A stretch of DNA of 35,730 nt, taken from NCBI GenBank assembly GCA_902767245.1, contig CACXGO010000001.1:1-35730 (forward strand). The letters are read 5' to 3'. Made by a program: the position numbers and the translations under genes. Below are positions 18,353-20,465 of the stretch, one piece after another (position 1 is the first letter of the stretch; the number at the start of each line of letters is the position of its first letter). The notes beneath the pieces were generated by a model. That model was not told the DNA's origin and ran no database searches. It saw nothing but the letters and a program-made list of their open reading frames with translations. The DNA is from an uncultured Erysipelotrichaceae bacterium (GTDB lineage Bacteria > Bacillota_I > Bacilli_A > RF39 > UBA660).

Positions 18353-18383
18353 AAAAAAATGACGGAGTAAATAAATTACTCCG
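18353..18383 (-). terminator. Terminator of the small RNA
   Basis: CGGAGTAA (18363-18370), ATAAA, TTACTCCG (18376-18383), with seven T on the minus strand (18353-18359). The remaining gene-free stretch, 18181-18352, is plain AT-rich DNA in which I see nothing. Confidence 0.8.
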
Positions 18384-18449
18384 CCTTCAGGGGGTTTTGG
18401 TTGCACTCTCACTAATTGTCGTAAGTAGTGCTAGCGTGTTTCACACGCC
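18353..18449 (-). ncRNA. Candidate new small RNA, about 97 nt
   Basis: A consensus promoter (18456-18484) predicts a start at the GG at 18449-18448. The RNA opens with a GCGTGT-GAA-ACACGC hairpin, then a second stem region (GCACT...AGTGC, competing with CACTA...TAGTG). An unpaired C-rich stretch AACCAAAACCCCCTGAAGG follows. It ends in an 8-bp CGGAGTAA/TTACTCCG terminator with seven U. No open frame or ribosome site fits inside. It lacks the SRP-RNA loop, tRNA shape or a riboswitch core I know. C-rich single-stranded motifs are typical of Gram-positive small RNAs that bind ribosome binding sites, such as RsaE/RoxS. Existence is inferred from signals. Confidence 0.65.
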
Positions 18450-18455
18450 ATTATA

Positions 18456-18484
18456 ATTATAAATAAAATGCTATTAAAAGTCAA
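18456..18484 (-). promoter_or_regulatory. Promoter of the small RNA, overlapping the recG stop codon
   Basis: Minus-strand TTGACT (18479-18484), exactly 17 bases, TATAAT (18456-18461). The TGA of recG is inside the -35 box. Confidence 0.75.
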
Positions 18485-20448
18485 GATATCCCCTCTTGCA
18501 TTTCATCTACAATATTTGCAAAATTTTCTAATTTTTTGGTTTTTAAATATTCTTCACTGTCTTCTTTAGCTGCTTTTAAAATATCAAAATCATTCTTAAT
18601 ATTTAGTATTTTGAAAGCCATATCTCCACTTTGACGAACTCCAAAAATATCTCCACTACCTCGAAGTTTAAAATCTTCTTCACTTATTTTAAAACCATCA
18701 CATGTTTTTTCTAAAATTCTTAATCTTTCTGTTTCGTGATCAGAAACTAAAATACAATATGAATCTAAATCATTCCTTCCAACTCGGCCTCTTAATTGGT
18801 GCAAAGCAGAAAGTCCAAACTGAAAAGCGTCAAATATAACCATCATTGTCGCATTCTTGACATCAACACCAACTTCAATAACTGTTGTTGATACAAGAAT
18901 TTGAACTTTATTTTCTTTAAATTTATTCATGATTTCATCTTTTTCTTTGACACTCATTTTACCATGTAAAAGTCCTAGTTTACAAACTTTACCCAATGCT
19001 TTTTCCAAATTTTCATAAAGTGTTTCAACATTAGTTAAGTCACTTCGGTCGCTTTCTTCAATCAATGGTGCAACTACATATATTTGATGCCCCTTTTTTA
19101 TTTCATCTAACATCATTGTTAAAACATCTTTAATTTCTTTTGTATTTTTAATTTTAGTAATTATTTCTTTTCTACCATTGGGTACTGTTTTAATCGATGA
19201 AACATCCATATCACCATATAAAGTTAAAGCATAAGTTCTTGGTATTGGAGTTGCACTCATATACAAAATGTCTGGCTTTTTCCCTTTGTTTTTTAAATTA
19301 CTTCTTTGATTAACGCCAAAACGATGCTGTTCATCTGTAATAACTAAACCTAAATTGGCATAGTTAACTTTTTCACTAATTAAAGCATGAGTTCCAATAA
19401 TGATATCAACTTCATTATTTTCAAGTAACTTATAAACTTTTGTTTTAGATTTAGTATTACCTGTAAGTAAAATGACTTTAACCCCAAAATCTTTAAATAA
19501 GGCTTCAATATTAATAAAATGTTGATTAGCTAATATTTCAGTTGGGGCCATTAATGCGCCTTGATAACCACTCAAATAATTAATATATAAAGCAATTATT
19601 GCAACTATAGTCTTACCACTACCAACATCCCCTTGAAGTAATCGATTCATTCTTTTTTCGCTTGTTAAATCATCATAAATAGCTTCAACTGCTTTTTCTT
19701 GATCAATTGTTAATTTAAATGGAAGCTTATTAATAAATTCAAATACTTTTTCTTTATTAACATTTCTTTTTAAGCCATCATTTTTTTTGGCACTCAACTT
19801 TAAATAATTCATTTTAAACATAAACTTAAATGCTTCTTCATATTTTAAACGCTTACTTGCTATATTTATATCTTTTAAAGTTTGTGGAAAATGAATTAAC
19901 TCTAAAGCTTTTCTTTTGGATAAAAATCCATATTTTTGTGCATATAATTCTGGCACATAATCACTTATTTTAAAATCTTGAAAAAATAGATTATTAATAA
20001 AATTTTCAATTTGTTTACCTGTTATGCCAGAAACGGTATGATAGACGGCTTCTATTTTGGGTCTATCTGGAAGCAAACCAAATTTAAGATCACTTGCAAT
20101 AATTTGACCTCTTTCAAGTTTCCCAATAACAGAAATATTACTACCAATTTTTAATTTGTTTTTTAAAAAACCACGATTAAAAATTGTCACATTAAAAAGA
20201 TTTGATGCTGTTCTAAGTTTAAAATTCATACGATCCTTACGTCCAAAGAAAAAGATTGTTGGAAGGGATTCTAATACACCATCAATGACAATTTTATCAC
20301 CATCTTTTAGGCTTTTTAAATCGCTTCTAGCAATTATTTCATAACGATACGGATAATAATTTATAAGGTCATCCGGAGTAAAAATTTCAAGTTTGTTTAA
20401 AACTTTTTCACTTTTTGGTCCTACTCCTTTGACATCTTTTAAAACCAT
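18481..20448 (-). CDS. recG: ATP-dependent DNA helicase RecG
   Basis: A 655-residue protein, normal for RecG. The N-terminal wedge/OB domain (LKDVKGVGPKSEKVLNKLEI, then an IDGVLES strand) is followed by the helicase core: Walker A GDVGSGKT, DEQH box, SATPIPRT, and the family end ALHQLRGRVGRN and KLRGSGDIFGVRQSG. It remodels stalled replication forks and Holliday junctions. ATG 20448 is set by AGGTGA 5 bases upstream; the longer GTG frame overlaps that site. A LexA-like palindrome lies between its promoter boxes. Confidence 0.97.
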   Translation of the reverse strand: MVLKDVKGVGPKSEKVLNKLEIFTPDDLINYYPYRYEIIARSDLKSLKDGDKIVIDGVLESLPTIFFFGRKDRMNFKLRTASNLFNVTIFNRGFLKNKLKIGSNISVIGKLERGQIIASDLKFGLLPDRPKIEAVYHTVSGITGKQIENFINNLFFQDFKISDYVPELYAQKYGFLSKRKALELIHFPQTLKDINIASKRLKYEEAFKFMFKMNYLKLSAKKNDGLKRNVNKEKVFEFINKLPFKLTIDQEKAVEAIYDDLTSEKRMNRLLQGDVGSGKTIVAIIALYINYLSGYQGALMAPTEILANQHFINIEALFKDFGVKVILLTGNTKSKTKVYKLLENNEVDIIIGTHALISEKVNYANLGLVITDEQHRFGVNQRSNLKNKGKKPDILYMSATPIPRTYALTLYGDMDVSSIKTVPNGRKEIITKIKNTKEIKDVLTMMLDEIKKGHQIYVVAPLIEESDRSDLTNVETLYENLEKALGKVCKLGLLHGKMSVKEKDEIMNKFKENKVQILVSTTVIEVGVDVKNATMMVIFDAFQFGLSALHQLRGRVGRNDLDSYCILVSDHETERLRILEKTCDGFKISEEDFKLRGSGDIFGVRQSGDMAFKILNIKNDFDILKAAKEDSEEYLKTKKLENFANIVDEMQEGIS

Positions 20449-20465
20449 ATGATTCACCTAGAATC

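Follow-up and report, generated by a model that had tools for sequence, protein, structure and literature searches.

The window, by which we mean the whole 35,730-nt stretch of genomic DNA analysed here, comes from an uncultured Erysipelotrichaceae bacterium and contains a gene for a small RNA (sRNA) between recG and a gene coding for a protein of 294 aa (Table 1). An earlier sequence-only reading had proposed a complete transcription unit at this place without naming a strand; all the parts it described are present, on the minus strand. As it had claimed, the -35 box TTGACT (18484-18479) overlaps the TGA stop codon of recG (18483-18481). A spacer of 17 nt separates it from the -10 box TATAAT. 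This promoter matches at 11 of 12 positions and ranks second among the promoter-like sites of 2 kb, a length in which 13 such matches are expected in AT-rich genomes; terminator-like sites number three against 0.5 expected. The terminator has a stem of 10 pairs (18385-18361) followed by AUUUUUUU, with the seven U already noticed. The predicted fold of the transcript (18449 to 18353) has -37.6 kcal/mol against a mean of -16.7 for shuffled sequences (z -6.8, none of 200 shuffles as low). Hairpin 1 is the 5' hairpin of the earlier reading, which overlooked a second conserved hairpin behind it. The C-rich stretch is there and unpaired as described, although it had gone unnoted that this is the most conserved part of the RNA.

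Table 1. Features of the small RNA locus and its neighbours in the window.
Feature	Position	Strand	Basis or remark
recG, upstream neighbour	18481..20457	minus	Pfam RecG wedge, RecG_dom3_C and helicase domains
-35 box TTGACT, overlapping the recG stop codon	18479..18484	minus	most of the 117 parsed homologues have TTGAC[AT]
-10 box TATAAT	18456..18461	minus	promoter scan and homologues
Small RNA gene, ~97 nt, new family	18353..18449	minus	fold z -6.8; covariance-model match
Hairpin 1, GGCGUGU GAA ACACGCU	18433..18449	minus	fold and covariation
Hairpin 2, consensus CACUCUUACG...GUGAGAGUG	18403..18431	minus	fold and covariation
Unpaired core AACCAAAACCCCCUGAA, 17 nt	18386..18402	minus	presumed pairing seed; its CCCCCTGAA end is the putative attachment-site core for integrative elements
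Intrinsic terminator GGCGGAGUAA UUUAU UUACUCCGUC AUUUUUUU	18353..18385	minus	module replaced by mobile elements in relatives
Downstream neighbour, 294 aa	17239..18123	minus	no Pfam or NCBIfam match; sporadic accessory gene

No Rfam family reached its gathering score anywhere in the window, and in a lax search the best match (E 8.8) was a chance one to an unrelated family. The covariance models of SRP RNA, 6S, tmRNA, tRNA and riboswitches did not match the sRNA either, so that the lack of resemblance to known classes, initially judged by eye, holds in a covariance search. Literature searches found no description of the sRNA or of the attachment site presented below.

Comparison by BLAST with 60 relatives revealed clear homologues. 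Of 291 family genomes, 137 contain the exact core 17-mer and none contains its reversed control; 127 of the 141 distinct loci with the 17-mer keep the promoter, both hairpins, the core and the terminator. Among the 117 homologues whose promoters were parsed, the -35 box is TTGAC(A/T) in most and the spacer is 17 nt long in 107. The distance from the -10 box to the core ranges from 53 to 77 in this set, with nearly all lengths in between represented and no 3-base period, which argues against a coding sequence and agrees with the absence of an open frame claimed before. Comparing the region downstream of recG in relatives, as the same reading had suggested, the anatomy of the sRNA recurs and the synteny is conserved, with recG upstream of the sRNA also in L069, L078, L081, L089 and L164. 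The hairpin sequences themselves vary freely among homologues. In an alignment of 48 of them, 15 of 16 base pairs had changes on both sides (7/7 in helix 1 and 8/9 in helix 2), and the covariation cells amounted to 92 against 26.7 in shuffles, a value reached by none of 500; the signal was lost when the partner columns were slid.

A covariance model recovered the sRNA at E<=0.01 in 207 of the 241 genomes of the order, represented in this search by a single family (f1), the match in the window's own genome having an E value of 2.6e-11 and 47.6 bits. The remaining 34 family genomes gave no match under strict filters, a count to which genome incompleteness could contribute. Outside the family, the search of 247 genomes of the class gave one strong match only (G487, 3.5e-14). 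Weak matches in other Bacilli families turned out to be coding sequence or unrelated terminators in those inspected (L287, L288, L290 and L291), and secondary matches inside the family were cassette boundaries instead of additional sRNAs. The gene is usually single-copy. Its carriers are MAGs labelled uncultured Bacilli, Erysipelotrichaceae, Mycoplasma or Tenericutes, many from samples whose names indicate rumen or the gut of goat, sheep or rabbit, and we take them to be RF39-like lineages. At the level of sequence, the gene, its conservation and its structure are established and the family is new. The probable new small RNA of the sequence-only reading is thus upheld by the empty Rfam searches, the family-wide presence and the covariation; what that reading missed was the attachment site, and it proposed no function. 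The lack of visible repeat arrays, together with a core too constant for such a role, led us to drop a CRISPR or tracrRNA interpretation.

Several of the homologue sets had been selected by the core, and for this reason its constancy was re-tested on 20 homologues picked by the covariance model and not by the core. ACCCCCTGA was present in 20/20 of these, and so was the unpaired core ACCCCCUGA. The variants AACCAAAACCCCCTGAAG and AACCGAACCCCCTGAAG are common, and the seed consensus AACC(A/G)AA(A)CCCCCUGAAG is single-stranded, C-rich and nearly constant. The copies of the core found on mobile elements and cassettes share CCCCCTGAA only and not AACCAAAA, so the 5' half must be conserved for another reason, presumably the RNA. 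Some copies depart from the usual arrangement. L033 (G214:C4:53339 and 53578) has a promoterless inverted core 240 nt from a complete sRNA gene, and L020 and L159 have cores without sRNA and with similar flanks; the extra core of the former and those of the latter two are probably distal element ends or partial duplications. Multi-copy repeats with AAAACCCCCTGAAT found in two genera (G012 and G013, L210-L226) are unrelated to the sRNA anatomy.

Within clades, the identity among nearly identical sRNAs ends at CCCCCTGAA and is followed by different terminators. Identical terminators with identical downstream DNA occur, in turn, in different clades, and terminators (typical replacements are GTTCCCTCGAGAGAGGGAACGC and GGAGCGCAATAGCGCTCC) are common to several genera. 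Past the terminator, 7-nt direct repeats 10-13 nt apart were detected in 59 of 108 loci (1.9 in shuffles, 3/89 in the upstream control); they look like putative arm sites of an integrase. Furthermore, among the 77 loci with at least 1.4 kb of downstream sequence, 21 have a tyrosine integrase gene starting within 450 nt, convergent in every case, compared with 0/118 upstream. These integrases match Pfam PF00589 (Phage_integrase) with E values of 1e-25 to 1e-29, and most have an Arm-DNA-bind_4 domain. Second core copies with terminators were found 0.95-3.3 kb away, in line with a short, sharply bounded core at both ends. On these comparisons, the predicted attB site is the seed's 3' edge (CCCCCTGAA|G). 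As contigs usually end shortly past the terminator, no contig was found to span a complete element from end to end. A virus origin of the sRNA was rejected, the 17-mer being present in only one IMG/VR contig. This sole contig with the core in the viral collection, L061 (IMGVR_UViG_3300031555_005889), carries the sRNA, a convergent integrase and an S24-type repressor, so the users of the site include at least one phage-like element with a repressor.

The longer elements add a MobV-type relaxase and an AAA_25 protein. The relaxase is above the Pfam Mob_Pre cut-off in L139 and L146, and matches the NCBIfam MobV model NF041497 with E values of 3e-23 and 1e-25, yet below its curated cut-off. By their predicted gene content, these are integrative mobilizable elements. 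Further CCCCCTGAA sites in the same orientation were found downstream (11, with a terminator after 11/11), while upstream of the sRNA there was no CCCCCTGAA site with a terminator. They delimit cassettes of 0.95-3.3 kb that may stand in tandem, as in L170 (sites at 1331 and 2750 nt past the sRNA) and L149 (1401 and 2510). Among the cargo genes are those for a DUF1016/YhcG nuclease (PDC-S02), for Fic and SoFic-like proteins and for type II restriction-modification pairs, besides HTH genes with IrrE or Fic. These small defence-gene cassettes have no integrase of their own, and we infer that one supplied in trans would mobilise them. The tandem cassette loci (L170, L149, L148, L156, L174, L150, L152, L087 and L096) also contain some genes without an assigned role; those lacking a family match in L149 (411 aa), L152 (413 aa) and L096 (184 aa) are candidate new defence genes.

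The window's own copy has no second core within the window and no direct repeat after its terminator (it lies outside the 59 loci above), and the 294-aa gene next to it, besides its lack of a family match, is sporadic, with presence in 5 of 38 relatives counting itself and absence from the same-genus genome G001. For these reasons the site looks unoccupied here, though the downstream gene is accessory. The Shine-Dalgarno (SD) of this gene (18123 region, minus strand) is GAGGGGUUUUU, of which GGGGUUUU is complementary to the core segment AAAACCCC; the predicted duplex of -20.0 kcal/mol is not clearly above that of other genes in the window. Elsewhere in the same genome (G000), contig C32 has cassette-type sites at 120 and 4458 (L331 and L332), 4.3 kb apart, with an HTH gene and an IrrE-like gene behind them.

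Many relatives contain another unannotated small RNA (sRNA2) between nifJ and recG, on the other strand and divergent from recG, also with no Rfam match. In L089, L164, L081, L078, L069 and L150 it lies 2.3-3.6 kb upstream of the sRNA, and some 40 distinct loci carry it; it is not in the window. Its parts are a promoter similar to TTGACA-17-TAGTAT, a hairpin CACCAAUUC..GAAUUGGUG, a hairpin CUAGU AUCAC ACUAG, the sequence CAACCCCUUUUUAUUC and a terminator. A 24-mer of sRNA2 is present in 118 of 145 family genomes and absent from the window's genus. The terminator loop CAGGGGG, kept in 33 of 40 distinct copies despite differing stems, is complementary to the sRNA core, and sRNA2 is a candidate sponge of the C-rich sRNA.

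Gram-positive pairing sRNAs, RoxS and FsrA among them, typically have an unpaired, G-less, C-rich stretch between their hairpins; the C-rich regions of RoxS bind mRNAs, and a G-rich sponge RNA, RosA, is known for RoxS/FsrA (PMC8216469). Judged by its letters, the sRNA described here belongs by kind with these C-rich pairing sRNAs, although the Rfam test placed it in no named family. An unpaired, C-rich seed of this sequence would be expected to pair with UCAGGGGG. Its own genome was searched for long complementary targets by allowing up to 3 mismatches to the 17-mer complement; none was found, as the search gave the sRNA gene itself and otherwise about as many matches as the control. Occurrences of CAGGGGGTTTT in relatives were discarded as targets, being mostly the antisense of the sRNA, with the copies in G012/G013 belonging to the unrelated repeats. 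The seed complement UCAGGGGG lies 3-9 nt before an ATG in 92 of 193 family genomes, about twice the reversed-pattern control, which is no fair control for SDs. In the window's genome a ClpX-like gene that follows an aminoacyl-tRNA synthetase gene has UCAGGGGG as its SD, and G001, the second genome of the genus, retains this SD; the predicted duplex with the sRNA has -32.9 kcal/mol against -18.9 in shuffles (0/300). Homologous groups of genes with this SD recur over genera (membrane or secreted proteins, acyltransferases), with about 9 homologous pairs against 2-4 by chance as a rough estimate. This recurrence of the same target genes, and with it their pairing by the sRNA, is only suggestive. 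Hfq was not found in 40 relatives, in a search in which control genomes gave Hfq, so an Hfq-independent mode is expected.

We consider it probable that the locus encodes an Hfq-independent, trans-acting, C-rich sRNA, of a type confined to one family of low-GC, uncultured gut Bacilli, that pairs with UCAGGGGG SDs and whose 3' end has been adopted as attB by mobilizable elements. The gene would be transcribed independently into an RNA of ~97 nt, in which two covarying hairpins precede the single-stranded C-rich seed, and the seed would repress translation of selected mRNAs by covering their UCAGGGGG Shine-Dalgarno. Elements with a tyrosine integrase, a MobV relaxase and an AAA ATPase, and integrase-less defence cassettes probably mobilised by integrases in trans, would insert at CCCCCTGAA|G. 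Each insert would carry the 3' part of the site and a new terminator, so the sRNA would stay complete, in a manner comparable to the repair of the tRNA 3' end by elements that enter tRNA genes. A more ambitious version is possible but doubtful, in which the gene is the docking platform of an integron-like system, with non-IntI tyrosine recombinases stacking defence cassettes with replacement terminators at the seed/terminator junction, and recG is flanked by a pair of RNAs, sRNA2 acting as the sponge.

The C-rich core might instead bind a protein, and the sRNA might have a structural or housekeeping role (as a protein-binding, decoy or ribosome-associated RNA). The usual single copy, the near constancy of both core halves, the missing Hfq and the lack of an extended conserved target would fit such a role, but the freedom of the hairpin sequences to vary, the absence of the sRNA from other Bacilli families and the G-less unpaired C-rich stretch that is typical of the pairing sRNAs RoxS and FsrA (PMC8216469) make it unlikely. 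More improbable is that the transcript is a leader or attenuator of the downstream genes, comparable to the promoter and attI of integrons, and regulates no others. A strong promoter does point towards the cassettes, and tandem cassettes share its orientation; however, each insert opens with a strong terminator right after the core, which insulates the promoter from the cargo, the covarying hairpins 1 and 2 cannot form anti-terminators with terminators that vary between strains, and loci with no visible element, the window's among them, still have the gene.

Since core and attachment site coincide, the core could also be conserved solely as attB, with the RNA incidental. We give this very little credit, because element copies have CCCCCTGAA alone and yet AACCRAA, the promoter and the two covarying hairpins are kept, the promoter, hairpins and 5' core half being retained even in genomes without any element; moreover, selection acts on the host gene and not on the preference of the element. 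That an AT-rich intergenic region with the terminator of recG merely resembles a gene is hardly credible: promoter-like matches are abundant in such genomes, as the 13 expected illustrate, but the fold z of -6.8 and the family-wide conservation speak against chance and the covariation refutes it. The pairing sRNA with an adopted 3' end is therefore the reading we prefer.

In this way an uncultured and very common gut lineage gains a small RNA whose seed can be tested and for which there are candidate targets. More surprising is the use of its gene by integrating elements that replace the terminator, defence cassettes among them. Elements would find in the sRNA gene, as they do in tRNA genes, a landing site that is nearly universal: with the seed so strongly constrained, any element that recognises its edge could enter nearly every genome of the family, and the insertion would be harmless because the insert brings a terminator. 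It would also explain why assemblies often break just past the gene, and it offers a fixed address at which to seek new anti-phage systems in the genomes of the family.

Like RoxS/RsaE, FsrA and CsfG, the sRNA is ~100 nt long, has its own promoter and terminator and contains an unpaired C-rich region presumed to pair with G-rich SDs; as RoxS/FsrA have the G-rich partner RosA (PMC8216469), here there is the G-loop RNA sRNA2. It differs from them in lacking Rfam similarity, in its other hairpins, in a different and longer core (AACCAAAACCCCCUGAA), in its restriction to one uncultured Bacilli family and in a 3' end that would be attB. The integration resembles that of phages, ICEs and IMEs at the 3' ends of tRNA and tmRNA genes, with an adjacent convergent tyrosine integrase, the 3' end of a stable-RNA gene as the site, restoration of the 3' part by the insert, arm-type direct repeats and tandem accretion. 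Here, in contrast, an sRNA gene is the target, and the insert restores the edge of the core and supplies an entirely new terminator in place of an identical 3' end. MobV integrative mobilizable elements have the same set of integrase, MobV relaxase and AAA/DnaB-like protein; the attachment site is new, and the hosts are an uncultured Bacilli family. Integrons share the arrays of small cassettes in one orientation at a fixed chromosomal site, the single site per cassette and the defence cargo. However, the integrase here is not IntI (TIGR02249 gives 44-47 bits against a cut-off of 265), no attI or attC was recognised, the site consists of CCCCCTGAA and the terminator hairpin, and relaxase-bearing elements share it with the cassettes.
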